Below, in pieces: positions 8,684 to 54,354 of a DNA stretch of 58,707 bases. The notes beneath the pieces are model-generated. The model worked only from the letters and a program-made list of their open reading frames with translations. It was not told where the DNA came from and ran no database searches. Made by a program: the position numbers and the translations under genes. How positions within the stretch are numbered: position 1 is the stretch's first letter; every line of letters begins with the position of its first letter. Origin of the DNA: Nocardioides sp. (GTDB lineage: Bacteria > Actinomycetota > Actinomycetes > Propionibacteriales > Nocardioidaceae); assembly GCA_025965125.1 (NCBI GenBank), contig JAOPXM010000205.1, positions 1 through 58,707 of the forward strand. Reading direction: 5' to 3'.

Positions 8684-8697
8684 CCCTGAAATTGGGG
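8684..8697. promoter_or_regulatory. AT-cored palindromic motif, degenerate copy
   Basis: CCCTGAAATTGGGG lies 102 bp upstream of the LuxR-type regulator start. It is a looser member of the CCCC-N5-GGGG family found elsewhere in the window (9006, 29167, 31153, 33161). Confidence 0.35.
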
Positions 8698-8962
8698 ATG
8701 GACACCCTCGCCGCAGCCACCGATGGTGGAGGTGGGGGTCACGAGACCGCCCACCAGTCGAAAACGAGCCGGAGAAGGGGAGGGAGGAAACCGCCCGCAC
8801 CGCAAGGCCCCCGAGTTGGGCGGGCGCCACCCCTGTACCTCGCCGGAGACCCACGTACCCGGCGGAGCCGTTTCGACTGGTGGGCTCTCCCTCCCCAGCG
8901 CATGTTTTCCCTCATATGTGGTATTGGTCGGGGTATCGTCCTGCGTAGGGGCGGCTGCGACC

Positions 8963-8968
8963 TAACTT
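8963..8968 (+). promoter_or_regulatory. Possible -10 box of the histidine kinase operon
   Basis: TAACTT sits 7 nt before an in-frame GTG at 8976. If it is used, the transcript begins at about 8976: either a leaderless mRNA starting at that GTG, or a leader of about 100 nt for the ATG at 9078. No good -35 box is visible. Confidence 0.3.
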
Positions 8969-9005
8969 TCACTTCGTGAGCAGAACTGCCGACGAGACAT
9001 CAGGA

Positions 9006-9018
9006 CCCCTATTCGGGG
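9006..9018. promoter_or_regulatory. CCCC-N5-GGGG palindromic motif
   Basis: CCCCTATTCGGGG, a strict copy of the recurrent motif, 60 bp upstream of the preferred kinase start. It differs at one position from the copy at 29167-29179. Confidence 0.5.
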
Positions 9019-9077
9019 GGGGTCGGCTTCCCGTCACTCGCTTCCAGCCTCCTACGTCGCGAGCTGGGGGGAAAGCG

Positions 9078-10538
9078 ATGGCGTTCGATCGGGTACCTGT
9101 CGGCGCCTGGGGGTGGAGATCCACGCTCCTGGTCGTCGCCATACTGGTGACTCCCCAGCTGCTCGTGCTGCAGCTGATCCCGGAGACGAGACGCCTCACC
9201 GAGGCGGCACAGGTCAACGACCTGCTGGCCTATCCGATGATGCTGGGGGCGGCCCTGTGCCTCTATATCTACTGGCACCTAGTCGGGCTCTCGAGCGCCA
9301 CCTGGCTGGTCGCCGCAGCCATCCTCTTCTCCGTGCAGGGGCTCGCCTACGCGGCCCTCCGGATGGCGCACGAGCAGCAGGTGAGAACCAGTCCCGGGTG
9401 GCACCTCATCATCGAACAGGCCGTTGCGCTGATCATCCTGGCGATGGTCGCCCAGGCGAGCCGTGGCCCGGCACCGACCGATCCGCTGACCATAGGCCTG
9501 TCGCTGGGTCTGCTGATCAGCGGATTGCGCGTGCTGATGTCGGAGGTGGCCCCTCAGTTCGCGCTCGACGGCCAACTGCTGGTCCTGATGGCCGCGTGCT
9601 TCCTGGTCGCCAACCTGGTCACGGCAGTACTCCTGATGCGGGTGGTCGAGCCACCTCGCTGGGCTCGACAACGCTTCGCCCTGGCGATTGCCCTGCTCGC
9701 CATCAGCCGCACGATCACGTATCCGACCCCGCGGGGGGACGTACGAAGCGTCATCGCCATCGTGGCCGAGCTGGGCGGCGTGTTCCTCATCACCGGGACC
9801 GCGGTGGCCCTGGTACGGGTGACGATCGGTGAGCACCGCCGCTGGGTCGGCTCGTTGCACGACCAGCTGGCGCGCGTGGAGGCGGGGCTTCGCGTCGACC
9901 GGGCCCGGTTGCACGAAGTCGGTAGCACCATCGCCGGCATCGCCTCGGCCTCACGGCTGATGCACGATGTCGCGAGAGTCAGTCCCGCGCGGCGTCGCAA
10001 GCTGGAGCAGACCATCGAGTCCGAGATGGCGCGGCTCGAACGCCTCATGTCGAGCCGGGTCGGAGGTCCGCTGCTCCCGGTCGAGCTGGACGGCACCCTC
10101 GAACCCGTGGTTGTCGCCCACCAGGCGCGGGGCCAGGAGTGCCTGTGGGAGCCGAGCGGACATTGGGCCCATGGACGTGCCGACGACATCGCCGAGGTGG
10201 TCAACATCCTGCTCGAGAACGCGGCCGAACACGCCAAGGGAACGGCGGTCCGCGTGGGCGTACGCCGCGTGAGCGACACCGTGAGGATCTGCGTCTCGGA
10301 CTCAGGACCCGGAGTACCGGACACCGTCCAGCACCGCATCTTCGAGTGGGGGGCGCGGGGGGACGGCTCGTCGGGTCAAGGCATCGGCTTGCACGTCGCC
10401 CATCGGCTCGTGGCGGACCAGGGCGGCGCGCTCAGCATGGCCCGGGCCGCCGCACGAGGTGCCACCTTCGTCGTAACCCTCCCCGCCGAGGCAAGCCCAG
10501 GAGTGCGGTCGCATGACCCACAAGATCCTCCCGCGTAG
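9078..10538 (+). CDS. Membrane sensor histidine kinase
   Basis: A 486-aa protein with about seven or eight hydrophobic segments over residues 10-255 (for example STLLVVAILVTPQLLVL and LAYPMMLGAALCLYIYW), then a cytoplasmic kinase. The probable phosphorylation His is in RARLHEVGSTIAG near residue 279. The N box is ILLENAAEHA (~376), G1 is DSGPGVP (~408) and G2 is GQGIGLHVAHRLV (~433), so the ATPase is intact. The many-helix sensor region resembles kinases that sense membrane or small-molecule signals; the ligand is unknown. The start at 9078 follows GGGGGGAAAG; an in-frame GTG at 8976 would add 34 residues and could be leaderless. Its end overlaps the response regulator by 26 bp, making a clear two-component pair. 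Confidence 0.9.
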   Translation: MAFDRVPVGAWGWRSTLLVVAILVTPQLLVLQLIPETRRLTEAAQVNDLLAYPMMLGAALCLYIYWHLVGLSSATWLVAAAILFSVQGLAYAALRMAHEQQVRTSPGWHLIIEQAVALIILAMVAQASRGPAPTDPLTIGLSLGLLISGLRVLMSEVAPQFALDGQLLVLMAACFLVANLVTAVLLMRVVEPPRWARQRFALAIALLAISRTITYPTPRGDVRSVIAIVAELGGVFLITGTAVALVRVTIGEHRRWVGSLHDQLARVEAGLRVDRARLHEVGSTIAGIASASRLMHDVARVSPARRRKLEQTIESEMARLERLMSSRVGGPLLPVELDGTLEPVVVAHQARGQECLWEPSGHWAHGRADDIAEVVNILLENAAEHAKGTAVRVGVRRVSDTVRICVSDSGPGVPDTVQHRIFEWGARGDGSSGQGIGLHVAHRLVADQGGALSMARAAARGATFVVTLPAEASPGVRSHDPQDPPA

Positions 10539-11241
10539 CAGCATCCGGGTCCTGATAGTCGAGGACCATGTGCTGTTCGCAGAGTCTCTCGAGCTGGCCC
10601 TGTCGATGGAGGGCTACGACGTACGGCGACTGGTCCTGCCCGAATCCGGAGGTTCGATGTCCACGATCCTCTCGGCGGCGATCAGGGCGCACCCTCGGAT
10701 CGTGCTCCTCGACCTCGACCTGGGACGCTTCGGCAACGGGGGGCACCTGATCGGACCCATGGCCGGCGCCGGGGTCAGCGTGGTCGTCATCACCGCCTCC
10801 ACGGACCGGGCCCGCTGGGGCGAGTGCCTGCGATATGGCGCGCGCAAGGTGATGTCGAAGACCGAACCCCTCAACGACATCCTCGCCACCGTGCGACGAC
10901 TCAACGAGGGACTCCCCCTGATGGCGCCGGACGAACGTGAGGAGCTCCTGCAGCTCTGGCACAGCGAGCGCCGGGATCAACAGGTCCAGCGGGCCCGCCT
11001 CGAACGGCTGACAAATCGCGAGCGCGAGGTGCTGGGCCATCTCGTCGGAGGCCGCACTGTCCGGGAGATCGCCAGGGAGGAGGTCGTGTCCGAGGCCACG
11101 GTTCGGACCCAGGTCAAGGCCATCTTGAGCAAGCTCGAGGTCTCCTCACAGCTGGCTGCGGTCGGAATCGCGCACCGGACCAGATGGCAGCCGCCGAGGG
11201 CCGAGTCATCAAGGGGCCAGAGGTCTCGGAGCGATCAGTAG
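10513..11241 (+). CDS. LuxR/NarL-type response regulator
   Basis: A 242-aa regulator with an intact receiver: the acidic pair in LIVEDH (residues 17-18), phospho-acceptor Asp in IVLLDLDLG (about 67), Thr in VVITAST and Lys in KVMSKTE (about 116). The C-terminal LuxR helix-turn-helix is LTNREREVLGHLVGG ... SEATVRTQVKAILSKLEV. It overlaps the upstream kinase by 26 bp and is presumably its partner. It converges with the sugar transferase at 11268-12728, with their stop codons inside the same short tandem repeat. It is the best candidate in the window for direct control of the polysaccharide genes (inference from position only). Confidence 0.93.
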   Translation: MTHKILPRSSIRVLIVEDHVLFAESLELALSMEGYDVRRLVLPESGGSMSTILSAAIRAHPRIVLLDLDLGRFGNGGHLIGPMAGAGVSVVVITASTDRARWGECLRYGARKVMSKTEPLNDILATVRRLNEGLPLMAPDEREELLQLWHSERRDQQVQRARLERLTNREREVLGHLVGGRTVREIAREEVVSEATVRTQVKAILSKLEVSSQLAAVGIAHRTRWQPPRAESSRGQRSRSDQ

Positions 11242-11274
11242 GCGATCAGTAGGCGATCAGTAGGCGATCAGTAG
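11231..11274. repeat. Four perfect tandem copies of an 11-bp unit carrying both stop codons
   Basis: GCGATCAGTAG is repeated four times without change (11231, 11242, 11253, 11264). Each unit contains TAG on the plus strand and TGA on the minus strand. The response regulator stops in copy 1 and the convergent sugar transferase stops in copy 4. Confidence 0.95.
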
Positions 11275-12728
11275 GCGCCGCGGTGGTCGAGGACCGCGCG
11301 GAGGGTGCGGAGCACGATCGCCAGGTCCAACCCCGGGGACCAGTTGTCGACGTACCGGGTGTCCAGGCGCACGGTGTCCTCCCACGACAGGTCGGAGCGC
11401 CCCGACACCTGCCACAGGCCGGTCAGTCCAGGCTTCACGACCAGCCGACGGCGCGGATCGACGTCGTACTCAGCCACCTCGCTGGGCAGCGCCGGACGAG
11501 GACCGACCAGCGCCATGTCGCCGCGAACCACGTTCCACAGCTGCGGCATCTCGTCGAGCGAGTAGCGACGCAGGAAGTGGCCCAGCTCGGTCACGCGCGG
11601 GTCCTGACGCAGCTTGAACAGCACCCCCCCGGTCTCGTTGCTGTCCGCCAGCCCCGCGAGCATGCTCTCGGCTGTCACACCCATGGTGCGGAACTTGTAC
11701 ATCGTGAAGGTGCGCCCCTGGAGCCCGACGCGTTCCTGACGGAAGATGGCTCCACCCGGAGACCCACGCCTTATCAGGAGGGCGATCGTCACGAGAACCG
11801 GAGCGACAGCGACGAGGACCAACGCGGCTGCGCTGCGCTCGGCGACGTCCTTCAGGAACCGACGAAGCCCGTGCAGCGGCGCAGGTGCGACGTGCACCAG
11901 CACCAGCCCCGCTGCGATCGCGTTCGTGCGGCGGAAGGGTGCGACGTCGACGAGTCCGGTGCCGAGGTAGATCTCGATGTCGGCTGCTTCCAGCCGCCAT
12001 TGGAGACGGCGCACCGAGCCCGGGTCCAGGAGGTGCCCGGGAAGCACGAGGACCGCGTCCGCAGACTGGTCAATGGCCAGCGCGGCGGCCGTGTCCACGC
12101 CACCGACGGCCGAGGGTGGCAGGTCGTCGACCCGGCCCGGCTGCGTGAGGCACACAGCGACCACCTGCACCCGCTGCGCCGCCGGTCGCTCGAGCTCGGC
12201 CAGCGCCCGTCGGACGTCCACCGGATGTCCGACCAGTACGACGCGAGCTGCCGTCGCCGACCGGGTGCCCGTGCGTCGCGTCGCCTGCGGCACCAACCGC
12301 AGGGCGACGCCGGCGGCGGTGACGCAGCCGGTGAAGGCGATGAGCGTGCCCGACGCCGGCGCGTTGAGGAACGCGGACCCGACCCAGCACACGAGACCCA
12401 GAACCATCCCGGAGTGCACCACCCGCCGGACCGCGGACGACGAGTCGTCGAGAAGCTGCCCTCGGGCATAGGCGCCTCGGGCCGCCAGCAAGAGCGGCCA
12501 CCCGAGGAGAAGCGCGAGACCCGGCTGGCGACCCAGGGAGGCGCCCTGGAGGCCGAGGACGGACAACGTGACGCAGGCTGCCAGTACGTCGCCCATCGCG
12601 GCGTGCGGGTGCCACCGCAACGCGCTGATGCGGCCCAGGCGTCGCAACGGTGCAGCAACACCGGCGTCGAGAACCTGGCCGGCGTCGGCGAAGGGATGTG
12701 GGGCAGCTGGCGCCAGGGCCTCGGCCAT
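11268..12728 (-). CDS. Polyprenyl-phosphate sugar-1-phosphate transferase (exopolysaccharide initiation)
   Basis: A 486-aa WcaJ/CpsE-type priming enzyme. The N-terminal half has several hydrophobic helices (residues ~30-135), followed by a CoA-binding-like domain (ARVVLVGHPVDVRRALAEL). A re-entrant helix near residue 293 precedes the catalytic bacterial sugar transferase domain, with YKFRTM, DEMPQLWNVVRGD (~389), LVGPRPALP, KPGLTGLWQVSGRS and LDTRYV. It transfers a sugar 1-phosphate from a nucleotide sugar to undecaprenyl phosphate at the membrane, the first step of repeat-unit assembly. The start at 12728 has GGGAGGGGGC 7-8 nt upstream. The main polysaccharide locus lies 10 kb away, so this is probably its initiating enzyme (inference). 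Confidence 0.93.
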   Translation of the reverse strand: MAEALAPAAPHPFADAGQVLDAGVAAPLRRLGRISALRWHPHAAMGDVLAACVTLSVLGLQGASLGRQPGLALLLGWPLLLAARGAYARGQLLDDSSSAVRRVVHSGMVLGLVCWVGSAFLNAPASGTLIAFTGCVTAAGVALRLVPQATRRTGTRSATAARVVLVGHPVDVRRALAELERPAAQRVQVVAVCLTQPGRVDDLPPSAVGGVDTAAALAIDQSADAVLVLPGHLLDPGSVRRLQWRLEAADIEIYLGTGLVDVAPFRRTNAIAAGLVLVHVAPAPLHGLRRFLKDVAERSAAALVLVAVAPVLVTIALLIRRGSPGGAIFRQERVGLQGRTFTMYKFRTMGVTAESMLAGLADSNETGGVLFKLRQDPRVTELGHFLRRYSLDEMPQLWNVVRGDMALVGPRPALPSEVAEYDVDPRRRLVVKPGLTGLWQVSGRSDLSWEDTVRLDTRYVDNWSPGLDLAIVLRTLRAVLDHRGAY

Positions 12729-12914
12729 GCAGCTCGCCCCCTCCCGGGCTCTCGACAACGATTTCGGGTGTGCCTTGAACTTAGGGAACGGGCGCCGTCG
12801 CGGCATGCCGCATTTGAGGCAAGTGTCCGCACGCCCCCGAGCCTGATCCGGGCGCGCTCCAACCCGGGAACCTGCTGTCCCTGTCGGGGCCTTGCGTGCT
12901 GCCCTGCGAGGCGG

Positions 12915-13112
12915 CTACGGCATCGTCACCGTCCGCCGGGCGGTCTTCGCCGAGACGTTTCCAGGTGGGTCCACCGTGGTGACCTGGTAGCCGTACGTGG
13001 CTCCATCGGCCCGGTGGGGCAGGACCAACACCGCGAGGATGGCTCCGAGGAGCGCGAGGACAATACCGATGGCGAGCACGGCGTACTGGCGGTGCGGGAA
13101 GTGGGTCGACAC
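12915..13112 (-). CDS. Small single-pass membrane protein of unknown function
   Basis: A 65-aa product, with one transmembrane helix (YAVLAIGIVLALLGAILAVLVL) after a short basic/His N-terminus and a Thr-rich extracellular tail (ATYGYQVTTVDPPGNVSAKT). I do not recognise a family. The GTG at 13112 is preferred because GAGGAG lies 9 nt upstream; an ATG at 13142 would add 10 residues but has no spaced Shine-Dalgarno. It lies 186 bp upstream of the priming sugar transferase on the same strand, so it may be a membrane partner of it or expressed with it. Confidence 0.6.
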   Translation of the reverse strand: MSTHFPHRQYAVLAIGIVLALLGAILAVLVLPHRADGATYGYQVTTVDPPGNVSAKTARRTVTMP

Positions 13113-13188
13113 GACGGCTGTCTCCTCAGGTGGTGACGACATCCTCGGGAGGGAGTCACGCGCACGAGCCGTCCGTCGGGACCTTTAG

Positions 13189-13198
13189 CCAAATTTGG
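13189..13198. promoter_or_regulatory. AT-cored palindrome upstream of the small membrane protein
   Basis: CCAAATTTGG, a perfect 10-bp palindrome 76 bp before the GTG at 13112 and 46 bp before the ATG at 13142. It resembles the CCCC-N5-GGGG sites but has only two flanking C/G on each side. Confidence 0.3.
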
Positions 13199-13265
13199 TC
13201 ACGGAGGTTTCTCGCGAAGCCGTATCCGCAGCTGGGGAGGGCGGCGACCGGGCACCTCGGTGCCC

Positions 13266-41740: not shown

Positions 41741-41754
41741 CCCTCATTTCGAGG
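41741..41754. promoter_or_regulatory. AT-cored palindromic motif upstream of the CotH gene
   Basis: CCCTCATTTCGAGG, 115 bp before the ATG at 41870 and upstream of a TAACGT hexamer at 41778 that could be a -10 box. It is a looser relative of the CCCC-N5-GGGG sites. Confidence 0.35.
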
Positions 41755-41869
41755 ATGTAGGCAAGGCCCGCACGACCTAACGTCAAAGGCCTCGGGGTGA
41801 CCGACCCGCGTTGGACATTCCGCTCCTGGTCAGCCGCGCAGCGACCGCAACCCCCACACGACGGACTGG

Positions 41870-44800
41870 ATGGACATGAGCTCACACCGATCGAAGCTCG
41901 CCGGACTGCTGGCGACCACGCTCACCCTCAGCGCCGCGGTCGCCCTGAGCACCGCACCACCAGCCGCCGCCGCATCCACCGACGTCATCATCAACGAGAT
42001 GATGTACCACGCCCTCTCCGACCTCGACGGCGACGACTTCCTCGAGCTCACCAACATCGGCACCTCGGCCGTCGACCTCTCCGGCTGGACGTTCAGCGGG
42101 ATCACCCTGACCCTGCCCGCCGGCACCACCATCGCTCCCGGCGGCTACCTCGTGGTCGCCAAGGACGCCGCCCAGTTCCAGACCACCTACGGCTTCACCC
42201 CTGCCGCCGTCTACGGCGGCAACCTGTCCAACTCCGGCGAGACCGTCGCCGTCAAGGATGCGGGCGGCGTCACGAAAGACACCGTCAGCTTCCTCGACGT
42301 CGACCCCTGGCCCGTCAAGGCCGACGGCACCGGCCCCTCCCTCGAGCTCATCGACGCCACCCTGAACAACAACGACTTCCTCAACTGGGCCGCGGCCACC
42401 AACACCAGCGGCCGCACCCCCGGCGCCGCGAACTCCGTACGCCGCACCGGCCTCGGCCCCCGCATCACCACGGTCACCGCCACCCCCACCACCCCGGCAG
42501 CCAACCAACCCGTCACCGTCACCGCCACCATCTCCATCGACCAGACCAGCGCCACCCTGCGCTACCGCATCGACTTCAACACCGAGCAGACCCTCACCAT
42601 GACCAGCAACGGCGACGGCACCTACAGCGCCATCATCCCCGGCGCCGCCGCCGGCCACCTCATCCGCTACCGCATCCAGGCCACCAACGCCAACACCACC
42701 ACCTCGTCCCCACGCACCGACGACACCATCGTCTACCGCGGCACCGTCGTGCCGCACGGGATCAGCAGTCCGATCCCCGTCCTCGAGTGGTTCATCGCCG
42801 ATGCCGACTACAACGCGATGGTGAACCAGCCCACCGTCGACATCACCCGGATCGCGGCGATCGCCTACGCCGGCCAGGTCATCGACAACGTCGAGGTCAA
42901 CATCAAGGGACACGCCTCCCAGAACGACCCCAAGGTCAGCTGGAAGTTCCACACCCCGCAGGGCCACGACCTCACCATGGCAGGGCTGCTGGTCGAGCCG
43001 GTCGACGAGTTCGACATGCAGGCGGACTGGAGCGACAAGTCGCACGGCCGGAGCATCCTGTCGTGGGAGGCCTACCAACGCGCCGGGGTCGTCAACCACC
43101 AGATGTTCCCCATCCGCACCCAGCGCAACGGCGCCTTCCAGGCCCTCTACAACCTCCAGGACACCTTCGACGGCACCTGGCGCAAGCGGGAGGGCTACGA
43201 CGACGAGCAGTTCTTCTCGGCCGAGACCAGCGCGTTCACTGCATCGCGACCGGTCAACGTGCGCTTCACGAAGGAGAACCCCGACGACAACGACTACACG
43301 CCCCTGTCGACGTTCCTGAGCTTCGTTCCTCTGACGGGGAATGCCCAGCGTGACAACCTGTTGGGCAGCGCCGACGTCCCGGAGATGATCAACTACGCGG
43401 CCGTCACCGCGATCATCGAGCACGTCGACTCGTCCTCGAAGAACTTCTACCTCTCGCAGGACCCGGCGACGACACGCTGGAGCATCATCCCGTGGGACCT
43501 CGACCACTCCATCGGCAACGGGTGCTGCAACGTCAACAGCAACTTCGTGACCCCGGCCGAGCCGGGGGACAACACCAGCGCACTGATGCGGGCCCTGCTC
43601 GCCGTCCCGCAGTGGCGGGACATGTACTTCCGTCGATTGCGCACCCTGGTCAACGACATCCTCGCGACCGGCCGCATGGAGGCGCTGTACGACGCCCGCG
43701 TCGGTCCCGCCCAGCCGGTTGCCACCCTCGACATCGCGGCCTGGCCCTACCCGTCGGGCTCCACCTACTCGACCTTCCGGACCCGGTTGTTCAACGACAT
43801 CCAGGGCCGTCGGACGGTGTTCGCTTCTGATGCGCGGGTGCCGGGCAACCAGCCCGCATCCCCGGACATCATGATCGACGAGATCCAGCACTCACCCACC
43901 ACCGGCGACACCGCCGAGTTCGTCGAGCTCTACAACCCCAACGGTTCGGCCATCGACCTGTCCGGGTGGACCCTCACCGGCGGCGTCACCATGACCATCC
44001 AGCCCGGCACCGTCATCCTGCCCCACTCGACGATGACGTTCGTCAGCAACGACCCCGCGTTCCGCGCCGCCTACAACCCGACCGTGTTCGTCGGCGACCG
44101 CTACACCGGCAACCTCGCCACCACCGCCACCCTGACCCTGACCCGACCCGACGCCACCACCGCTGACATCGTCACCTACGGCGGTTCCGGCTGGCCGGTG
44201 CCCACCAGCGGCCAGTCCCTCGAGCTCACCGACCCCGCCGCCGACAACAACAACGGGGCCAGCTGGACCCTGTCCACCGGGTCCGGCACCCCCGGCACCA
44301 GCGCCTTCAGCCCGCCCGTCACCGCCCCCAGCGCCCCCACCGTCGGCACTGCGTCTCCCGGCAACACCACCGCCACCGTCCGCTGGACCGCACCGGCCGA
44401 CGACGGCGGCTCGGGTATCACCGGCTACTCAGTCAAGGTCCTCAACAACACCGAGACCCAGGTCGGAGCACTCCGCACCGCCCCCGCCGGTGCCACCAGC
44501 CTGGTCGTCACCGGCCTTGCCAACGGCACCGCGTACCACTTCCAGGTCGCCGCCACCAACAGCGTCGGGACCGGGGCCTACTCCGCCTCGTCCAACACCG
44601 TCACCCCCGCCGCCACCACCGCCCCGGGCGCACCCAACATCGGGGCCCCGACCCAGGGAGCCGCCGGCGGAGCACTGACCGCCATCGCCCACTGGACCCC
44701 ACCCGCCAGCACTGGCGGCTCACCCATCACCGGCTACCGCGTCACCGCCCTGCGGATGAGCTCCAGCGCCAGCGACGCCACCGTGCTCTCCCGCACCGAC

Positions 44801-44938
44801 TCACCCATCCTCGGCGCCTCGGTCCGCCAGCGCTCCTTCACCCTCGCCGCCGGCAACTACCGCTTCGAAGTCGTGGCCATCAACGCCGTCGGCACCAGCC
44901 CACCCTCAGCCAGATCCGCCAACGTCGTCCCCCGCTGA
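41870..44938 (+). CDS. Secreted CotH-family protein with lamin-tail and fibronectin type III domains
   Basis: A 1022-aa exported protein with a signal peptide (LAGLLATTLTLSAAVAL, cleavage near AAAA at ~35). Domain order: lamin-tail domain 1 (~36-190, IINEMMYHALSDLDGDDFLE), an Ig-like spacer (~195-290), a CotH kinase-like domain (~300-650, VNIKGHASQNDPKVSWKF and SIIPWDLDHSIGNG), lamin-tail domain 2 (~663-815, IMIDEIQHSPTTGDTAEF), then two FN3 domains. The PWDLD motif is the metal site of CotH kinases, which phosphorylate secreted proteins or anchor spore-coat proteins. It may modify or cross-link surface proteins on the polysaccharide layer (inference). It converges on the GH26-like pair. Confidence 0.92.
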   Translation: MDMSSHRSKLAGLLATTLTLSAAVALSTAPPAAAASTDVIINEMMYHALSDLDGDDFLELTNIGTSAVDLSGWTFSGITLTLPAGTTIAPGGYLVVAKDAAQFQTTYGFTPAAVYGGNLSNSGETVAVKDAGGVTKDTVSFLDVDPWPVKADGTGPSLELIDATLNNNDFLNWAAATNTSGRTPGAANSVRRTGLGPRITTVTATPTTPAANQPVTVTATISIDQTSATLRYRIDFNTEQTLTMTSNGDGTYSAIIPGAAAGHLIRYRIQATNANTTTSSPRTDDTIVYRGTVVPHGISSPIPVLEWFIADADYNAMVNQPTVDITRIAAIAYAGQVIDNVEVNIKGHASQNDPKVSWKFHTPQGHDLTMAGLLVEPVDEFDMQADWSDKSHGRSILSWEAYQRAGVVNHQMFPIRTQRNGAFQALYNLQDTFDGTWRKREGYDDEQFFSAETSAFTASRPVNVRFTKENPDDNDYTPLSTFLSFVPLTGNAQRDNLLGSADVPEMINYAAVTAIIEHVDSSSKNFYLSQDPATTRWSIIPWDLDHSIGNGCCNVNSNFVTPAEPGDNTSALMRALLAVPQWRDMYFRRLRTLVNDILATGRMEALYDARVGPAQPVATLDIAAWPYPSGSTYSTFRTRLFNDIQGRRTVFASDARVPGNQPASPDIMIDEIQHSPTTGDTAEFVELYNPNGSAIDLSGWTLTGGVTMTIQPGTVILPHSTMTFVSNDPAFRAAYNPTVFVGDRYTGNLATTATLTLTRPDATTADIVTYGGSGWPVPTSGQSLELTDPAADNNNGASWTLSTGSGTPGTSAFSPPVTAPSAPTVGTASPGNTTATVRWTAPADDGGSGITGYSVKVLNNTETQVGALRTAPAGATSLVVTGLANGTAYHFQVAATNSVGTGAYSASSNTVTPAATTAPGAPNIGAPTQGAAGGALTAIAHWTPPASTGGSPITGYRVTALRMSSSASDATVLSRTDSPILGASVRQRSFTLAAGNYRFEVVAINAVGTSPPSARSANVVPR

Positions 44939-46072: not shown

Positions 46073-47020
46073 TTACTTGGGGGCGGCGCTGCGGGGGTCC
46101 GCAAGGGTCTGCTTGAAGGCGGCCAGCCGGTTGCCCGTGAGGACGCGGCCGCGTCCTCCGGTGGAGTTCCACAGGCAGCCGAACCAGACGTCGCGCGTGC
46201 TGAGCAGCTGCTCGCCGGCAGCGGCGATGGTCCTGGCGCTGTAGCCGTTGTACTCGCCCACGCCGATGGGCATCTTGCCGTGGCCGCGCGACTTCAGGAA
46301 CGCCCTCAGGGCAGGAATCCGAGCGCCGGGCTTCCGGCTCCCGGGGTTCTCCATGGTCCCGGACTCGTAGGTGTCGATGCCCATCCAGTCCCAGATCCCG
46401 AAGAGCTCGTCGGGGCAGTAGGACGCGAGCACCCCACGCTGGTTGTCCAGCAGCCATCCGTTCAGCAACGGACCGACCCGCAGCTTGCCGCGCTTGAAGA
46501 TCGGCAGCAGCTGCTTGGTCGCGGCGGCGTACTGCGCCCCGGACATGTCGCCGTACGGCTCGTGCCAGAAGGTGACCGCGGTCGGCTTGCCGTACGACGC
46601 CAGCCTGGCCGCCGCCTTCTCGGCGACGGCGTTGTACTTGCCGCTGACCGCCCCCGCGACGTCGCCGCCCACCTTGTAGGAGATCACCGGCAGGATGCCG
46701 GCCTCGTGTGCCTGCTCGACCAGCCTGATCTGGCTCGAGGGACCACTGCCGAGATCAGCGAAGATGCGTCGCGCGGTCAGGCCGGGACCCACCTCCCTGA
46801 CCCGTTGGTCCCAGACACCCCTCGGGGAGCTCATGCCGACGAGCGGGGTGCCGGCTGCCAGGATGGACTTGATGTTGGTGCGCAGGGGCTCGGGGCGAGC
46901 GCCGGCTGCCAGGCTAGGAGCCAGCAGGCCGGGTGCCGCTACCGCGGAGACACCCACGGCACCGGCACCCGCGGCACCCCCGAACAGACGCAGCACGTGA
47001 CGTCGAGATATTGAATCCAT
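46073..47020 (-). CDS. Tat-exported GH26-like glycoside hydrolase, copy B
   Basis: A 315-aa paralogue of copy A. The twin-arginine signal is ISRRHVLRLFGGAAGAGAV. FWHEPYGDMSGAQYAAATKQ and MPIGVGEYNGYSARTIAAAG carry the two candidate catalytic Glu residues; WDWMGIDTYESGTM lies between. The two copies are nearly identical in the central 200 residues and diverge mainly in the signal peptide and the linker after it (residues 30-60). Copy B ends 86 bp before the copy A start, so each appears to have its own promoter. Confidence 0.86.
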   Translation of the reverse strand: MDSISRRHVLRLFGGAAGAGAVGVSAVAAPGLLAPSLAAGARPEPLRTNIKSILAAGTPLVGMSSPRGVWDQRVREVGPGLTARRIFADLGSGPSSQIRLVEQAHEAGILPVISYKVGGDVAGAVSGKYNAVAEKAAARLASYGKPTAVTFWHEPYGDMSGAQYAAATKQLLPIFKRGKLRVGPLLNGWLLDNQRGVLASYCPDELFGIWDWMGIDTYESGTMENPGSRKPGARIPALRAFLKSRGHGKMPIGVGEYNGYSARTIAAAGEQLLSTRDVWFGCLWNSTGGRGRVLTGNRLAAFKQTLADPRSAAPK

Positions 47021-47067
47021 GGGCGACGACCGTAGGGGACGAAATCACTCAGTACCGCCAGATGTAC

Positions 47068-47078
47068 CTCAATTTGAG
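47068..47078. promoter_or_regulatory. AT-cored palindrome upstream of GH26-like copy B
   Basis: CTCAATTTGAG, a perfect 11-bp palindrome 47 bp before the start. It sits in an AT-rich stretch (47041-47115) that also contains AAAACTGGGG. It occupies a position similar to the 46018 site of copy A. Confidence 0.4.
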
Positions 47079-47162
47079 TAAAAACTGGGGTAAAAACCGC
47101 CAAAACTGGTATTGACAAGTGGAGTCCGGCGTGCCCGACGCCGGGGGAAGCTCGATCTTCTA

Positions 47163-47587: not shown

Positions 47588-47597
47588 TTCCTGACCG

Positions 47598-50500
47598 CTA
47601 GGTGACCGTCACCTGGCGGGTGACCGTGGTCGCCCGGCCCCAGTTGTCCGTGACCGTCAACGTGATCGTGTAGGTCCCGGCGGCCGTGTAGGTGTGCGAG
47701 CTGCTGGCCGTCGTACCGAACGCGGTGCCGTCGCCCCAGTCGTAGGAGTAGCTCCGGATCCCGTCAGGATCGCTGGTCCCGGTGCTGTTCATCGCACAGG
47801 TGCGTGCGTTGCAGCTCGTGGTGAAGGTGGCGGTCGGCGGGGTGTTGCCGGCCGGCTCGGGTTGCGTGGTCATCGACCGGGTGACCGGTGCACTGGTGTG
47901 CCCCCACTTGTCGAGCACTCGGAGCGTGACGGTGTAGGTGCCTGCGAACTGGTAGACGTGGGACGTGTTGGCCGTCGTAGCCGTCGTGTCCGGTGTGCCG
48001 TCACCCCAGTTCCACACGTAGTTCCTGATCCCGTCGCCTGCGGCGCTGTCGGGGTCGCTGCTCCCCGTTCCACTCATCGCGCAGGTCGTGATCGCGCTGC
48101 AGGCGGACGTCGTGGCGATCACGGCGGTCGGCGCGTTGTTGCTGGCCGGTTCGGTGATCGTCACGTCGTGGGTCGCGGTGCCCGCCTTGCCCCACACGTC
48201 GGTCACCGTCAGGACGATCGTGTACGTGCCTGGCGTGGCGTAGGTGTGCGACGGGTTGGCGGTCGTGCTCGCCGTGGTCAGGTCTCCCCAGGTCCACGAG
48301 TACTTCAGGGCGTCGCCCTGGGCATCCGTGGTCCCGGCGCTGTTCCCCAAGCAGACCGTGAACGAGCTGCAGGACACCGTGAACGTGACCGACGGGGCCG
48401 TGTTGTTCGCCGGCTCGCTCAGCGTCACGCTCCGGGTGGTCGAGGCGGACTTGCCCCAGCCGTCGGTGGTCGTGAGCGTGATCGTGTAGGTGCCGGCGGC
48501 GGCGTAGACGTGCGCGGCGGGCGCGGCGCCCGTGCTAGGCGTTGTCCCGTCGCCCCAGTTCCACGAGTAGGCGATGGTGTCGCCGGTGTTCGGGTCCGTG
48601 GTGCCCTGACTGCTCACCGAGCAGGTCAGGCCCTGGCAGTTCTGGGCGAACGTCGGCACCGGGGCGGAGTTGCCGGAAGGTTCGACGATCGTCACGTTCT
48701 GCGGTGCCGAGGTGTTCGTGAGCGTCCACTCGTCCCGCACCGTCAGGGTCACCGGGAAGGTGCCGGGGGCGGTGAAGGTCTTCGTGGGCAGCGGTCCGGT
48801 CGCCGTCCCCTGCGTCCCGAAGGTCCACGAGTACGTCAAGGAGCTCGCGTTCTCGTCGGTGGAACCGCGGCCGTCGAACGTGCACACGTTCTGGTTGCAC
48901 GAGTAGGTGAAGCTCGCCACCGGCGGGTTGTTCGGTGGCGTGGTGACCGTGACGCCGGTGGAGATGCGCTCCACACCGATCTGCTCGCGGACGTCGATCG
49001 GCCTCACCCTGACGGTGTAGGTCCCGGCCGGGATGACCGGCGTCGTGTACGAGTAGTTCGACCCTGCGCTGCCCGGGCTGTTGAGGAACGCCGTGCGGTA
49101 GCTGGCCGCGGTGCTGGTGAAGGTGCCCGTCGAGCTCATCCACTGCCCGGCCGAGTTCACGATCCCCACCTCGACCCGAGCGATGCTGGCGTTCGCGTCC
49201 GGCGCGTCCTCGGCGCGGCCGGTCACGACGATCTTGCCGTCGTTGAAGCTGGCGCCGCTCTGCGGCTGTCCCAGGGTGTCGCTCAGGGAGGGCGGGTCGT
49301 CGTTCGGGTAGAAGCGATAGGTCCCGGTCGCGCCGGTGGTCGAGGGGTCCTGTTGGCCGGTCGAGTCGTACGCGATGGCGGTGAAGGTCCAGTTCCCTGC
49401 CGTCGGCAGCGTGATTGCGAGCGACCAGGTGGTCGACGCCGCGCCCGGCGAGGCCAGCGTGGCGTCGCGGGTGGCGAAGGCGGCGTTCATGGTGCCGTTG
49501 GGCTGGAGGTAGCGCCCGGTGTCCCGGTCCTGCAGGGCCACCCGCACACTCGCGACACCCTTGTCGTCGGTGGCCGTGCCGGCGAAGCTCACGGAGAACG
49601 ACTCGTCGGTCGGGGCGGTGAAGCTCATCGTGGTGTCGGGGGCCAGGTCGCCGGCGTACTGGGCGTTGACGGTCAGCCGGCCCTGGTTGGTCGACGACGT
49701 CGTCAGGTCGGTGTCGTCGGTTGCCCGCACGGTGAACGCGTAGCTCCCCGCGGACAGGTTGAACGGCGTGGTGTAGGTCCAGTTGTAGGTGGACCCAGCG
49801 ATGTCGACCGGCGAGACCCGGTAGATGCCGGCCTGGCCGACACCCCACGTGCCGTCGTTGCGCAGCGCTTCCCCGGTGGAGGAGTTGCGCAGGGTGATCT
49901 CGACGTTCTTCAGGCCCTCGTCGTCGGCCGCGGTGCCGGAGAAGGTCAGCCTTCCGCCCGCCTCGACGGTGACCGCCGGGACGGTGAACGGCGGGGTCAT
50001 GGGAGCAGGCTGCTCGATCGCGACCGTCGGCGAGACCGCGTTGGAGTCGACCGTCCAGTCTCGTGTCGCGCTCCTCAGGTCGGCCTGACCGATGGTGTCG
50101 GTCGCCGTCGCGCTGCCACGCCACACGCCCTCGTGCGGCAGGGTCACCTCGTAGGACCACGTCGCGCTGGTGGCACCGATGACGTCGGGCGTCCCGCGGA
50201 AAGTGTTGAAGATCGGGCTCACCGTGCCGTCCGCCTGCAGGTAGCGCTGCTGCTCGTCGCGGAACCAGTAGCTCAGCGAGTTCACGCCCTTGTCGTCGTT
50301 GGCGGTGCCGGTCATCGTGAACGTGGTGGAGGTCTGGATGCCATTCGGGCCCGTGATGCTCGTCGTCGGCGTCTGGTCCTCGGTGCTGAACGACTCGAAC
50401 AGCTTGCTTGCGCGGGTCGAGTCGCCGGTCCCGCCGGTGGCGGCGGTGAACGCCTGTGCGTACACCCTCAGGTTCCGGTTCGTGGTGACGATGCGATTGT

Positions 50501-53078
50501 CCAGGTGCCAGTTCCGCGGCGTGGTCCCCGGTTCGAGCGTCGCGTTGACAGAGGTCGCGGTGCTGGTCCAGGTGTTGCCGGAGGTCAGGTACTGGCCGCT
50601 GTTGCGGTCCTGGATCTGCACCTGCACCCGGCCGACGCTGCCGGTGGCTACCCGCGCCGTACCGGTGATCGAGAACGGCGTGTTGTTCTCGACCACGCGG
50701 CCCTCGATGGGGGTCGTGATCGTGGTGTCCGGCAGCGCCGGTGGGAACGTCACCGTGTTGAAGTCGAAGAATCCGACGCGGCCGGTGCGCACACCGCCCT
50801 TGAACATGCCGTCGCCGCCGACGAACAAGCCGCGCGGCGTGGCCTCCATGGCCTTGTCACCCTCGAAGGAGTTGGACCCGTCAAGCGGGTACCACTCGAG
50901 CGACCTTCCGTCGGTGGGGTTCAGGGCCGCGATGTGGTCGCGGCGCACGACCTGGTCGCCGAGGCCGTAACCGGCCAAGCCCTGGCCGGTGCCGTAGCCG
51001 ACGTTGTCCAGGCCCGGCCACGGGTCGTCGGAGCTCGGCGACTCGATGAACCCGAAGTGCCCACCCACGTAGACCGCGACCTCGGTGATGGCCACCGAGT
51101 AGATGCTGTCGAAGTGACGGGCGATCCACAGCGGTTGGACGTCGGAGTCCTGGAGCGACGCGGCGTTGAGCGGGTAGGCGACCGCGGTGTCGCTGATCGG
51201 CGGCGCGTCGCCACCCGACCCACTCGAGACCACGAAGTACGAGTCGTCAGGGGCGATGTCGCCGGCGGCGATCCGGGTGACGCCACCGACGCGCGCCAGG
51301 TTGTTGTCCCACAGCTGGCTCCGCCAGGGCAGCAGTTGCTTGGTGCTTGTGTCGATGATGCCCATGCCGTAGCGGTCCTGACCGTCGATCTGCCGGCCGG
51401 TGTGCACGACGAGCAGCTTGCTGCCGTCGTGGGTGAGCTTGAGCTGCGGCACCCCGAGCTGGCCGTCGACGCCGATGCCTCCGGACAGCTGGTTGTCGAA
51501 GCTCTGGTCGACGACGCCGGACGCGGCGTTGACCGCAGCGAGGCCGGTCATGAGCGCGCCATTGATCCGCGTGAACCTGCCACCGACGTAGACGGTGTCG
51601 TTGCTGGCGGCCAGTGCGGTCACGGAGTTGTTGGTGCTGTTGGTGAAGCCGAACGTGGACAGCGGCGCACCGGTGGAGAGGTTCAGGCTCGCCACCTTCT
51701 GCTTGGCGACTCCGTTGACCGTGTTGAAGGAACCACCCACGAAGAGCTTGGTGCCGTCAGGGCTGGCCTCGACTGCGCTCACACCGCCGTTGAACGTCGG
51801 GCGGAAGCTGGTGTCGATCAAGCCAGAGGTGAGGTTGTACGACGCCAGGTTCGCCTGGTTGATGGTCGTCGTGGGGGCGATGGTGTTCGCGAGCGACGTG
51901 AAGGTGCCGGCGATGAACACGCGGTTCAGCGATGGCACGACCTCGATGTCCCAGATCTCGCCGTTGCTGATGCGCGGCGTGTTGTTCCGTGGCTTGTCCG
52001 GCACGAGGCGCGTGTGCCCCGGGACACCCTGGCCCCCGCCGCCGCCGCCGCCCACCGTCGGGTTGGCCGTCCGCGTCGCCGGTGCGGACGCGAGGCCCTG
52101 GTTGTCGGTGACCACGAGCGTGATCGTCTTGGCGCCGCTGGTGGCGTAGGTGTGGGTCGTGGACACGCCGGTGCCGGTGCCGCCGTCACCGAAGTCCCAC
52201 GCGTACGACGTGATGGTGCCGGGCGGGGTGTCGGAGGACCCCGACGCGTCGACCGTGCACGTCGCCTGTGGGCAGACGACGGTGAAGGACGCCACCGGCG
52301 CCACATTGGGGTTCGTCGTCTGGTCCGCCTGGAGCACGACGGTCCACATCGTCGCCTTGGCGGTCGACACCGCACTGGTGGCGGTGCGAGCGGTGGTCGG
52401 CCCGGTGCCCGACGGAGCGTTTGCGTCGGAGGCGATCGAGTTGATCCGCCCGGCCCCTGTTCCGGCCACGAAGGAGCGCTGGGTCTGCCCGGCCGGCAGG
52501 GCCCACCCGGTGGTCGTGCTCGAGGACTTGTCCGCCCAGTAGGAAACGACGTAGGAGCCTGCTGTCGCCACGGTGTCGACCGGGGTGGTGTGCGTGGCCC
52601 GGTTGACCGTCTCGGCGGCCGACGCGAACACGGCGACGGGGTCCGCCGCCGTACCGTCGTACGCCAGCAGGGTCAGCGTCGACTTGGTCGTGGCGGAGAA
52701 GGCGACGGCCGCGTTGGTCCCGGCGTCATTCGCCGCCGCGACCTTGCTGTAGAGGATGGTCTCGGTGTCGGTGCTCGACAACCGCGTGCCCTCGAGCGTC
52801 CAGCCCGCAGGTGCTGTTGTGACCGAAGCCAGGGCCTTGTTGCTGGTGACGAACAGCAGCATGCCGTCCGTCTCTCGGACGGACGCCGGGATGGTCACTC
52901 GGGCCGTGGGCTGGTTGAAGAACGCCTCGGCCGACGCGCGGAAGACGATGGTGTCGGCCGCGGCGGCGGGCGTTGCCGTCATGCCGACCACAGCGAACAG
53001 GGCAGCCACCATGGCGGCCACCGCCGCCACTGCCACCCTGCCGCACATCGAACGCGCGCCTGGCCCTGAAAGCATCAT
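47598..53078 (-). CDS. Very large secreted PKD/beta-propeller surface protein
   Basis: An 1826-aa exported protein. The signal peptide is VAVAAVAAMVAALFAVVGMT, cleaved near PAAAA (~41). Domain order: a module of about 210 residues (43-256) with SYVVSYWADKSSSTTTGW; one PKD domain (~257-340); a Gly-rich linker; a beta-propeller-like region (~360-790) with repeats such as KLFVGGSFNTVNG and VYVGGRFTRINGALMTGL; five Ig-like repeats sharing a RDxxTGRYLxxxGT pattern (~790-1370); and five PKD domains to the C-terminus (each with YSWxWGDG and GTYTITLT). There is no LPXTG or membrane anchor. It is probably an adhesin or matrix protein. Its upstream region (53079-53298) is shared with tauE-like transcription in the other direction. 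Confidence 0.9.
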   Translation of the reverse strand: MMLSGPGARSMCGRVAVAAVAAMVAALFAVVGMTATPAAAADTIVFRASAEAFFNQPTARVTIPASVRETDGMLLFVTSNKALASVTTAPAGWTLEGTRLSSTDTETILYSKVAAANDAGTNAAVAFSATTKSTLTLLAYDGTAADPVAVFASAAETVNRATHTTPVDTVATAGSYVVSYWADKSSSTTTGWALPAGQTQRSFVAGTGAGRINSIASDANAPSGTGPTTARTATSAVSTAKATMWTVVLQADQTTNPNVAPVASFTVVCPQATCTVDASGSSDTPPGTITSYAWDFGDGGTGTGVSTTHTYATSGAKTITLVVTDNQGLASAPATRTANPTVGGGGGGGQGVPGHTRLVPDKPRNNTPRISNGEIWDIEVVPSLNRVFIAGTFTSLANTIAPTTTINQANLASYNLTSGLIDTSFRPTFNGGVSAVEASPDGTKLFVGGSFNTVNGVAKQKVASLNLSTGAPLSTFGFTNSTNNSVTALAASNDTVYVGGRFTRINGALMTGLAAVNAASGVVDQSFDNQLSGGIGVDGQLGVPQLKLTHDGSKLLVVHTGRQIDGQDRYGMGIIDTSTKQLLPWRSQLWDNNLARVGGVTRIAAGDIAPDDSYFVVSSGSGGDAPPISDTAVAYPLNAASLQDSDVQPLWIARHFDSIYSVAITEVAVYVGGHFGFIESPSSDDPWPGLDNVGYGTGQGLAGYGLGDQVVRRDHIAALNPTDGRSLEWYPLDGSNSFEGDKAMEATPRGLFVGGDGMFKGGVRTGRVGFFDFNTVTFPPALPDTTITTPIEGRVVENNTPFSITGTARVATGSVGRVQVQIQDRNSGQYLTSGNTWTSTATSVNATLEPGTTPRNWHLDNRIVTTNRNLRVYAQAFTAATGGTGDSTRASKLFESFSTEDQTPTTSITGPNGIQTSTTFTMTGTANDDKGVNSLSYWFRDEQQRYLQADGTVSPIFNTFRGTPDVIGATSATWSYEVTLPHEGVWRGSATATDTIGQADLRSATRDWTVDSNAVSPTVAIEQPAPMTPPFTVPAVTVEAGGRLTFSGTAADDEGLKNVEITLRNSSTGEALRNDGTWGVGQAGIYRVSPVDIAGSTYNWTYTTPFNLSAGSYAFTVRATDDTDLTTSSTNQGRLTVNAQYAGDLAPDTTMSFTAPTDESFSVSFAGTATDDKGVASVRVALQDRDTGRYLQPNGTMNAAFATRDATLASPGAASTTWSLAITLPTAGNWTFTAIAYDSTGQQDPSTTGATGTYRFYPNDDPPSLSDTLGQPQSGASFNDGKIVVTGRAEDAPDANASIARVEVGIVNSAGQWMSSTGTFTSTAASYRTAFLNSPGSAGSNYSYTTPVIPAGTYTVRVRPIDVREQIGVERISTGVTVTTPPNNPPVASFTYSCNQNVCTFDGRGSTDENASSLTYSWTFGTQGTATGPLPTKTFTAPGTFPVTLTVRDEWTLTNTSAPQNVTIVEPSGNSAPVPTFAQNCQGLTCSVSSQGTTDPNTGDTIAYSWNWGDGTTPSTGAAPAAHVYAAAGTYTITLTTTDGWGKSASTTRSVTLSEPANNTAPSVTFTVSCSSFTVCLGNSAGTTDAQGDALKYSWTWGDLTTASTTANPSHTYATPGTYTIVLTVTDVWGKAGTATHDVTITEPASNNAPTAVIATTSACSAITTCAMSGTGSSDPDSAAGDGIRNYVWNWGDGTPDTTATTANTSHVYQFAGTYTVTLRVLDKWGHTSAPVTRSMTTQPEPAGNTPPTATFTTSCNARTCAMNSTGTSDPDGIRSYSYDWGDGTAFGTTASSSHTYTAAGTYTITLTVTDNWGRATTVTRQVTVT

Positions 53079-53193
53079 CCTTGAACTCCCTCACAACGGC
53101 GCCCATGGCGACCAGATGGGCCCTCTCAAGAGGGGCCTCAGATGCCGAACCTAGGCAGGTCCGGAGTGGGTCGAGATGGGTCGAGGACGCTTT

Positions 53194-53207
53194 CCCCGAT
53201 ATCGGTG
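53194..53207. promoter_or_regulatory. AT-cored palindrome in the divergent promoter region
   Basis: CCCCGATATCGGTG, with the perfect inner palindrome CCGATATCGG, between the large PKD gene (116 bp upstream of its start) and the TauE-like gene (91 bp upstream). TAGGTT on the minus strand near 53143-53148 could be the -10 box of the PKD gene. Confidence 0.35.
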
Positions 53208-53298
53208 AAGATGGGCCCGCAGGGGGCCACCGACGCTGCTGCTGCCGGTCAGTAGACCCACCCGGTCACTTCCGCAGCTCCGCAAATCGAAGGCAGTC

Positions 53299-54327
53299 AT
53301 GGGCCACCTCTTGACCACCACGTTCCCAGCCGTCCTGGCGGCGGGCTTCCTCGTCGGTGTCGTCGTCGGCCTCACCGGAATGGGCGGCGGCGCCCTGATG
53401 ACGCCGGCTCTGATCTTCCTCGGCGTGGGCGACGCCGCGACCGTCGTGACCGCCGACCTGACCGCGGCCGCCGTCTACAAGACCGGCGGCGCCCTCGTCC
53501 ACAGGCGCGAGGGGTCACCCAACATGGCGATGGCCAAGTGGTTGGTGATCGGCTCGGTCCCGATGGCGCTGCTCGGGCCGTACCTGATCAACTCGCTCGC
53601 TCCGCCCGGCGACCTCGACCGGACGCTCAAGCTCTGCATCGGCTTCGCACTGCTCTTTGCGGCGGTCACCTACGCGCTTCGCCTCTACGTCAACCTGCTG
53701 CGGATGCGCAGCGGGAACCACACGGACGATGACACCCCGACCGTCCGGCCTCTCCCCACGCTGCTCGTCGGCGCCGTCGGCGGGCTGCTGGTCGGCATCA
53801 CCAGCGTCGGCTCCGGCTCCGTCATCATGATCGCCCTGCTGATGCTCTACCCCGGGCTCTCGGCGGTGCGGCTGGTCGGCACCGACCTGGTCCAGGCCGT
53901 CCCGCTGGTGCTCGCGGCTGCGATCTCCAACATCGCGCTGCACGGGCTCGACTGGGCCGTCACCATCCCCCTGATCGCCGGCTCCCTCCCCGGCACGATT
54001 CTCGGCAGCCTGATCGCGCCCCGGGTGCCTCAGTCGATCATCCGACGCGGCATCGTGGTGGTGCTCACGATGTCGGGGGTAGCGCTCCTGGACAAGGCGG
54101 GCTGGGCGCCGCTGGGTGCGGGCGAGGACGACACCCACCCGCTCCTCATCGGCCTCGTGGGGGTGGCCATGCTGGCGCTGGTGCCCCTGGTCTGGGGGGT
54201 CGTGCGCCGCACCACCGGGCTGCCCATGTTCGGCTCGCCCACGGTCGCCCAGGTCGAGAATCCGTCGTACCGCCCCGGCGGGTGGCGAGTGGCCCCTGCC
54301 ACGACGATCAAGCCCGGAACCGGGTAG
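53299..54327 (+). CDS. TauE/SafE family anion (sulfite/sulfonate) permease
   Basis: A 342-aa membrane protein with about eight helices arranged as two repeats. Each repeat begins with the family's Gly-rich loop: VGLTGMGGGALMTPALIFLG near residue 24 and VGITSVGSGSVIMIALLMLY near residue 165. TauE/SafE proteins move sulfite, sulfonates or sulfoacetate, though many have unassigned anions. A 40-residue cytoplasmic tail ends the protein. Its presence beside a locus with four sulfotransferases could reflect sulfur handling for sulfation (inference; distance 12 kb). The start at 53299 has AAGG seven nt upstream. Confidence 0.9.
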   Translation: MGHLLTTTFPAVLAAGFLVGVVVGLTGMGGGALMTPALIFLGVGDAATVVTADLTAAAVYKTGGALVHRREGSPNMAMAKWLVIGSVPMALLGPYLINSLAPPGDLDRTLKLCIGFALLFAAVTYALRLYVNLLRMRSGNHTDDDTPTVRPLPTLLVGAVGGLLVGITSVGSGSVIMIALLMLYPGLSAVRLVGTDLVQAVPLVLAAAISNIALHGLDWAVTIPLIAGSLPGTILGSLIAPRVPQSIIRRGIVVVLTMSGVALLDKAGWAPLGAGEDDTHPLLIGLVGVAMLALVPLVWGVVRRTTGLPMFGSPTVAQVENPSYRPGGWRVAPATTIKPGTG

Positions 54328-54340
54328 TCGACTTCTGCGT

Positions 54341-54354
54341 CCCCAATTCTGGTC
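54341..54354. promoter_or_regulatory. AT-cored palindromic motif upstream of the second large PKD gene
   Basis: CCCCAATTCTGGTC, 110 bp before the preferred GTG at 54465. It is a half-strict relative of the CCCC-N5-GGGG sites (left half perfect, right half TGGT). Confidence 0.35.

Follow-up and report, generated by a model that had tools for sequence, protein, structure and literature searches.

The stretch analysed here (the window: 58,707 nt of Nocardioides sp., contig JAOPXM010000205.1 of assembly GCA_025965125.1) carries in its intergenic DNA 12 copies of an 18-bp dyad of approximately nTcCCCAAatTTGGGgAn, which is flanked by T and A and has an even centre. We consider it probable that these palindromes are the operators of an adjacent two-component system which activates exopolysaccharide and surface-protein genes. 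The motif, its conservation in relatives, the geometry of the associated promoters and its co-occurrence with the regulator were all established computationally. Within its genome (3.98 Mb, 92% complete assembly) the window corresponds to contig C113. The three proteins central to the proposal are:

7815–8582, minus strand: LuxR-type regulator with a degenerate receiver (pseudo-response regulator), divergent from the kinase gene; Pfam GerE; start from the gene caller
9078–10538, plus strand: membrane histidine kinase; Pfam HATPase_c
10513–11241, plus strand: NarL/FixJ-type response regulator, proposed as the main DNA-binding activator; Pfam Response_reg and GerE

Motif discovery and distribution in the window

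Motif discovery was conducted on the window's own divergent region together with 19 such regions next to kinase homologues, drawn from 18 of the 20 relatives' loci fetched. From these 20 inputs a palindromic 18-mer emerged with a log-likelihood of 116.5, compared with 24.0 to 31.5 for letter-shuffled controls. Sites were usually paired in these regions, the first lying close to the LuxR gene and the second close to the kinase gene. The scoring matrix (14.9 bits, motif nTcCCCAAatTTGGGgAn) was built from 35 sites in LuxR/kinase divergent promoters of relatives only. At a threshold of 12 bits it detected 12 distinct sites in the 4,625 intergenic positions of the window and none in the 54,065 coding positions, the best of which scored 8.1 bits. 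Of 2,000 palindromic matrices with permuted columns, not one found as many as 12 window sites (mean 0.17, maximum 3). Discovery with the window left out returned aTaCCcaAATTtgGGtAt, and the 11 top-ranked positions of the whole window under this model were 11 of the 12 sites, the last one (31249) ranking 14th. Gene models were obtained with a home-made codon-usage caller, with two starts set by hand (genes 11268–12728 and 31317–32318). The sites are as follows, with the positions of the putative -10 hexamers (TANNNT) given relative to the site centre:

8682–8699: site A, 15.8 bits, 99 bp before the start of the LuxR-type gene
8907–8924: site B, 16.6 bits, before the kinase gene; TAACTT at +47
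12805–12822: predicted operator, 12.5 bits, before the sugar transferase gene; TAAGTT at +30
13185–13202: predicted operator, 15.6 bits, before a predicted 65-aa gene (12915–13112, minus strand); no -10 at the usual offsets
29165–29182: predicted operator, 15.2 bits, before a sulfotransferase gene (28067–29056, minus strand); no -10 at the usual offsets
31151–31168: predicted operator, 13.8 bits, between an Alg14-like glycosyltransferase gene (minus strand) and the GH26-like gene (plus strand); no -10 at the usual offsets
31249–31266: predicted operator, 12.5 bits (8.2 with the window-free matrix), before the GH26-like gene; TAGGGT at +47
33158–33175: predicted operator, 19.0 bits, between the LamG gene (minus strand) and a sulfotransferase gene (plus strand); TAATGT at +47 towards the sulfotransferase gene
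41739–41756: predicted operator, 16.0 bits, before the CotH/LTD gene; TAACGT at +30
47064–47081: predicted operator, 18.9 bits, before gene 46073–46996 (minus strand); TACGGT at +38, not a usual offset
53192–53209: predicted operator, 14.9 bits, between the PKD surface-protein gene (minus strand) and a TauE gene (plus strand); TAGGTT at +47 towards the PKD gene
54339–54356: operator-like site, 15.4 bits, 240 bp before a predicted large gene at 54597 (plus strand); no -10 at the usual offsets
9006–9018: unsupported 'strict' copy, 5.9 bits

An earlier note on this DNA, made by eye, had described the element as a recurrent CCCC-N5-GGGG palindrome. The strings that it quoted are present at the positions quoted, and the short palindromes are real elements; its definition of the motif did not stand. 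Literal CCCCN5GGGG occurs four times in the window against 4.84 expected (standard deviation 2.23), and enrichment of the string was therefore rejected, its frequency being that of chance. With one mismatch allowed, CCCCNWWNNGGGG gave 15 matches in the window against 18.3 expected. A genome-wide search with CCCCNWWNNGGGG gave 20 strand-hits (7 forward, 13 reverse) compared with 12 for the reversed control; six of the 20 were three window places counted on both strands. The palindrome signal resides in position and extended shape and not in the bare string. Eleven of the 14 sites listed in the note scored at least 12 bits (8684, 12806, 13189, 29167, 31153, 31251, 33161, 41741, 47068, 53194 and 54341), and three were not supported as motif members by matrix score: 30005 (6.1 bits), 46018 (5.6 bits) and 9006, the last of which had been called a strict copy and has flanks unlike the motif. 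Site 8907, which passes 12 bits, had been overlooked.

Chance palindromes or composition effects of AT-poor DNA, picked out by eye, would be in keeping with the chance frequency of the literal string and with the three failing sites. Such an explanation is hardly credible in view of the permuted matrices, the held-out loci, the reversed-matrix controls and the fixed spacing to a -10 element described below.

Conservation of the sites in relatives

Conservation was assessed in 54 held-out loci, i.e. 77 named loci minus 18 overlapping the training loci and minus 5 further redundant ones. At thresholds of 10, 12 and 14 bits, respectively, 226, 183 and 139 intergenic positions and 6, 3 and 0 coding positions were detected, as opposed to 11, 4 and 1 intergenic and 4, 1 and 0 coding positions with the reversed matrix. 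No locus of the 54 was without a position scoring at least 12 bits, and 183 of the 186 such positions were intergenic. The set of 20 relatives' loci containing the promoters used for training gave 82 intergenic and 5 coding positions at 10 bits (2 and 1 in the reversed control).

Orthologous promoters were counted across 74 relatives' loci, for genes with at least 60 bp of upstream space of their own and sites of at least 10 bits. A site was present upstream of the LuxR gene in 60 of 62 cases and of the kinase gene in 50 of 58 (upstream regions of both were partly used in matrix training), of the response regulator gene in 21 of 26 and of the sugar transferase gene in 36 of 46. Smaller groups behaved likewise: Alg14-like (9/9), GH26-like (8/9), Wzz-like (5/5), LamG (3/3) and PKD (1/1) genes, as well as two sets of sulfotransferase homologues (3/3 and 2/2); homologues of sulfotransferase 36827 had no site (0/2). 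Intermediate values were seen for inositol phosphatase (3/7) and the GT2 gene 27111 (1/2). Upstream sites were rare at housekeeping orthologues (mfd 2/22, rplY 2/23, glmU 0/11, ligase 0/10, prs 0/5), and in the window, as the earlier note had claimed, no site of at least 12 bits precedes any of these five genes. Sites were likewise missing before gene 7304 (0/14) and the genes for the ABC ATPase (0/5), peptidyl-tRNA hydrolase (0/2) and 35592 (0/1). Among relatives' genes with no homologue in the window, 96 of 344 had an upstream site; the reversed matrix gave 13 of 672 for all genes in relatives' loci. Further targets in relatives encode glycosyltransferases, PIG-L and polysaccharide deacetylases, a nucleotide-sugar epimerase, a sulfotransferase, an acyltransferase, adhesin-like proteins and glycoside hydrolases.

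The note had proposed a dedicated extracellular-matrix regulon, with the two LuxR-type regulators close by as candidates, and had named two results that would speak against it, equal frequency within coding sequence and loss at orthologous promoters. Neither came out, as the refined motif is absent from window coding sequence at 12 bits and is kept before orthologues of target genes, and the proposal is supported.

Two loci showed departures in gene arrangement. One (L033, genome G006) has two response-regulator copies, each near a divergent regulator homologue, within ~4 kb, and is a tandem duplication of the module. In the other (L048:9817–13107, genome G023), the place of the sugar transferase gene beside the regulators is taken by a type II/IV secretion ATPase gene, which is itself preceded by a site.

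Co-occurrence with the response regulator

A response-regulator homologue (E-value of 1e-60 or better) was found in 27 of 36 same-genus genomes, and all 77 named loci with an alignment to the response regulator are titled Nocardioides or Marmoricola. Loci of the cultured species N. currus and N. furvisabuli are among those covered. The strict pattern TNCCNNAWWTNNGGNA had 89 matches in the 27 regulator-bearing genomes (reversed control 2) and 11 in the nine lacking it (reversed control 3), compared with 51 against 30 in the control for 21 genomes from other families of the order. In eight of the regulator-lacking genomes, most matches belonged to a G-C-inner type, of which TGCCCGAATTCGGGCA is an example. 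Another palindrome that recurs, TGCCCGAWWTCGGGCA, was seen in genomes without the regulator as well as in the order's other families (e.g. G025:C1:4414457); palindromes of this type are probably the site of another factor.

The sugar transferase gene gave a parallel result. Its best homologues in regulator-bearing genomes had a site of at least 10 bits in 15 of 25 cases, 11 of the 25 with a -10 box at +30/31, while homologues in regulator-lacking genomes had none (0/17), nor did the five paralogues examined of 23 listed.

Within the family, a close regulator was found in 2 of 113 genomes outside the genus, and one 38–42% identical in a further 10. These 10 loci (1e-32 to 1e-38) comprised three with one site of at least 12 bits and seven with none. 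The closer regulators were accompanied by three sites (L143, 61% identity) and by one or two sites at ~12 bits (L142, 47%).

In the window's own genome, nine of the 40 places matching the pattern with one mismatch fell in this contig, i.e. in 1.5% of the genome; all 40 were scored, and the 31 places outside the window equalled the 31 of the reversed control. Since the one-mismatch pattern recovers nine of the 12 window sites, lone sites of lower score may have escaped it; the assembly is 92% complete. No convincing matrix target outside the cluster was seen among six stretches viewed, which did not include the hits of at least 12 bits on C173, C99, C250, C13 and C49. The best outside match with an annotated setting was 55 bp upstream of a gene whose beginning resembles that of a GntR regulator (L132, judged by eye). 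Among the places scored and the stretches viewed in this genome, convincing sites were found only in the present cluster. One contig of the same assembly (C140, L128; 4.85 kb, 40.5% G+C, no genes by the codon model) is probably a contaminant.

If the motif belonged to some global regulator with no relation to the two-component system next to it, this could account for sites away from the cluster in some relatives, for instance seven strict pattern matches across the G023 chromosome. The concentration of one-mismatch matches in the window, the control-level count elsewhere in its genome and the fact that motif abundance follows the response regulator make this very unlikely. Strong sites far from the two-component locus were recorded in G023 and G003 (L146, L148, L151, L153), before RTX, GH16, GH6 and IgGFc/CshA adhesin-like genes, and in G023 a gene of the sigma-70 family (with Pfam regions 2, 3 and 4) has a 24.5-bit site 41 bp upstream (L152:3552). 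The G023 regulon may reach another sigma factor.

Promoter geometry

Offsets from the site centre were measured in 367 oriented site-gene pairs from 262 sites. A TANNNT hexamer started at +30/31 in 22 pairs and at +46 to +49 in 52, with ~0.6 expected per offset. Sugar-transferase promoters favoured the first position (13/22) and kinase promoters the second (23/69, with seven more at +35). In the window, six of the 12 sites have the hexamer at exactly +30 (sugar transferase, CotH) or +47 (kinase, GH26-like, sulfotransferase 33266, PKD).

Taking the hexamer as -12 to -7 places the site centres near -42 and -60. Activators of class II and class I, respectively, act from such positions. It is mainly for this reason that activation is favoured as the mode of action. 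The opposite mode, with the sites as repressor operators holding matrix genes off, deserves consideration in so far as a palindrome close to the -35 region might equally stand in the way of RNA polymerase; given the two discrete positions typical of activators, the distal of which would not normally be blocking, we regard repression as quite unlikely.

Response regulator, LuxR-type partner and kinase

Protein 10513 has the features of a NarL/FixJ-type two-component regulator, i.e. a receiver (Response_reg, 39.9 bits, cut-off 30.2) with a GerE/LuxR helix-turn-helix (44.8 bits, cut-off 23.5), conserved Asp, Thr and Lys residues, and an adjacent kinase with ATPase boxes. Receiver residues D18, D67, D69, T94 and K116 are kept in 98–100% of 83 homologues (D67 in 98%, T94 in 100%, K116 in 99%), among which the recognition helix SEATVRTQVK is nearly invariant. 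Protein 7815 is homologous to 10513 over its full length (36% over residues 13–225). The T, V and R of the SEATVRTQVK helix each recur in 97% of 59 divergent LuxR proteins, but the D67 position of these proteins is mostly L, V, I or F, and K116 is not kept.

In the kinase, H279 is found in 98% and N381, G433, G435 and G437 in 100% of 61 orthologues; H279 is the predicted phospho-acceptor. A Pfam search with the kinase returned no HisKA_3 family at E 0.001, and no NCBIfam model was above its cut-off for the three proteins among the matches listed (for the kinase, 25 of 64). The best sequence matches among solved structures were VraR (5hev), DesR (4ldz), NarL (1a04) and DevR/DosR (3c3w), with a best E-value of 7.6e-12. 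The end of the response-regulator gene is spanned by a perfect 11-bp tandem repeat, GCGATCAGTAG (11231–11277, 4.3 copies).

The link of the sites to the regulators, a matter of predicted binding, is suggested by conserved adjacency, by co-occurrence with the response regulator and by its almost invariant recognition helix. Alternatively, the divergently encoded LuxR-like protein 7815 might be the sole user of the sites, with the canonical response regulator active at other places. Site A adjoins the LuxR gene, nearly all LuxR homologues have an upstream site and the recognition helix of 7815 is similar; however, upstream sites occurred in 21 of 24 loci with no adjacent LuxR gene (57 of 59 with one), and the helix of the response regulator is better conserved than that of the LuxR protein. 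This persistence points to the response regulator as the main binder, and we think it unlikely that the LuxR protein acts alone. The comparison favours the response regulator, leaving a modulating role for its partner.

Proposed mechanism

Binding, phosphorylation, activation and the contribution of the LuxR partner are proposed here from protein and promoter sequences. The membrane histidine kinase 9078 would phosphorylate response regulator 10513, which would in turn bind the 18-bp dyad nTcCCCAAatTTGGGgAn. From sites centred at about -42, overlapping the -35 region, it could activate in a class II-like manner (e.g. the sugar transferase and CotH genes), and from about -60 in a class I-like manner (e.g. 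the kinase operon and the sulfotransferase, GH26-like and PKD genes). The LuxR protein 7815, with its similar recognition helix and a receiver devoid of phospho-acceptor and Lys, would probably modulate expression at the same sites, perhaps as heterodimer partner of the response regulator. The system would thereby switch on its own operon together with the nearby exopolysaccharide and surface-protein cluster.

A number of observations weigh against this interpretation. The TANNNT hexamer is missing from its usual offsets at six of the 12 window sites and in most of the 367 oriented pairs, and for LuxR gene promoters no preferred offset emerged. Ten of the 25 best sugar-transferase matches in regulator-bearing genomes lack a 10-bit site. 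The first seed model had the window's own divergent region among its inputs, for which reason discovery was repeated as described above. Finally, a few relatives have strong sites far from the cluster, before other secreted-protein and sigma-factor genes, and a paralogous regulator might therefore share the motif.

Predicted target genes in the window

11268–12728, minus strand: exopolysaccharide polyprenyl glycosylphosphotransferase (the sugar transferase, a priming enzyme); TIGR03025 above cut-off; target conserved in relatives (36/46)
31317–32318, plus strand: GH26-like target gene, named so in the earlier note; no Pfam match
32315–33139, minus strand: LamG-domain target gene; Pfam Laminin_G_3
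33266–34231, plus strand: sulfotransferase target gene; Pfam Sulfotransfer_3, detected on the longer open reading frame 32144–34231; start from the gene caller
41870–44938, plus strand: CotH/lamin-tail/fn3 surface protein, target gene; Pfam
47598–53030, minus strand: PKD-repeat surface protein, target gene; Pfam PKD_4

The large predicted gene at the window end (54597–58706) had no NCBIfam match, and an open reading frame of 1,133 aa with no Pfam match lies opposite to it, so that the coding strand is not certain. An Rfam search of the window for an RNA element returned only a tRNA.

Relation to known systems

The closest functional parallel is the Rcs phosphorelay of enterobacteria (RcsB with auxiliary RcsA), which likewise pairs a response regulator of NarL type with a LuxR-type auxiliary protein and controls exopolysaccharide or capsule genes through a 14–18 bp palindrome with an AT centre (PMC7298118, PMC4125116). 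A sugar-transferase step is targeted in both (WcaJ-like here; the role of WcaJ is given in the abstract of PMC4361858), and the predicted targets, namely the sugar transferase, glycosyltransferases, Wzz-like protein, sulfotransferases and deacetylases, are of the Rcs type. The RcsAB box, given as TAAGAAT-ATTCTTA in an excerpt of PMC7298118, is not matched, the half-sites being TAAGAAT in Rcs and TnCCC...GGGnA here. Moreover, a single kinase gene adjoins the regulator, and no RcsC/D/F phosphorelay was seen, none having been sought. Proteins 10513 and 7815 scored 20.1 and 22.6 bits with the RcsB model (cut-off 235) and do not belong to the RcsB family.

Streptomyces BldM and WhiI are also actinobacterial NarL-type regulators and act on a 16-bp palindrome (BldM TCACcCgnncGgGTGA), and heterodimerisation with a partner regulator has been shown for them (both from portions of PMC4125116). 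They differ in being orphan, atypical regulators acting in sporulation, whereas the present system has a canonical receiver, an adjacent kinase and an A/T site centre. A partner regulator that appears to lack a working receiver, as judged from the 59 divergent LuxR proteins, is a feature in common with Rcs or BldM/WhiI. VraR, DesR, NarL and DevR/DosR have the same domain order and belong to the same superfamily, and are not orthologues. The MadR family (NF047785), also NarL-type, was the third-best NCBIfam match of 10513, which is not a member (57.9 bits, cut-off 300).

More tentatively, we would entertain as possible rather than probable the independent origin, within actinobacteria, of a capsule switch resembling Rcs. 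Here a canonical NarL-type regulator and a divergent pseudo-receiver partner would share one 18-bp operator, singly or as a heterodimer, with two promoter classes set by position. One kinase signal would then bring on polymer priming, sulfation and large surface proteins together, and in some species the regulon would have been redrawn towards adhesins and secreted glycoside hydrolases.

A literature search of full texts (titles and abstracts, with subscription journals mostly outside its coverage) retrieved no description of such a system in Nocardioides. The main text of a Nocardioides simplex transcriptome paper (PMC7807495) discusses KstR and KstR2 motifs and contains none of the terms LuxR, exopolysaccharide or palindrom-. 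The palindromes represent a genus-wide regulon of a known kind of system, which we did not find described and whose function is predicted.

Significance

For the control of the extracellular matrix in Nocardioides, the analysis yields an operator derived from sequence, a probable activator and a list of predicted targets. The motif permits genome-by-genome prediction of matrix regulons, and the pairing of a canonical with a degenerate regulator offers a Gram-positive comparison to Rcs and BldM/WhiI.

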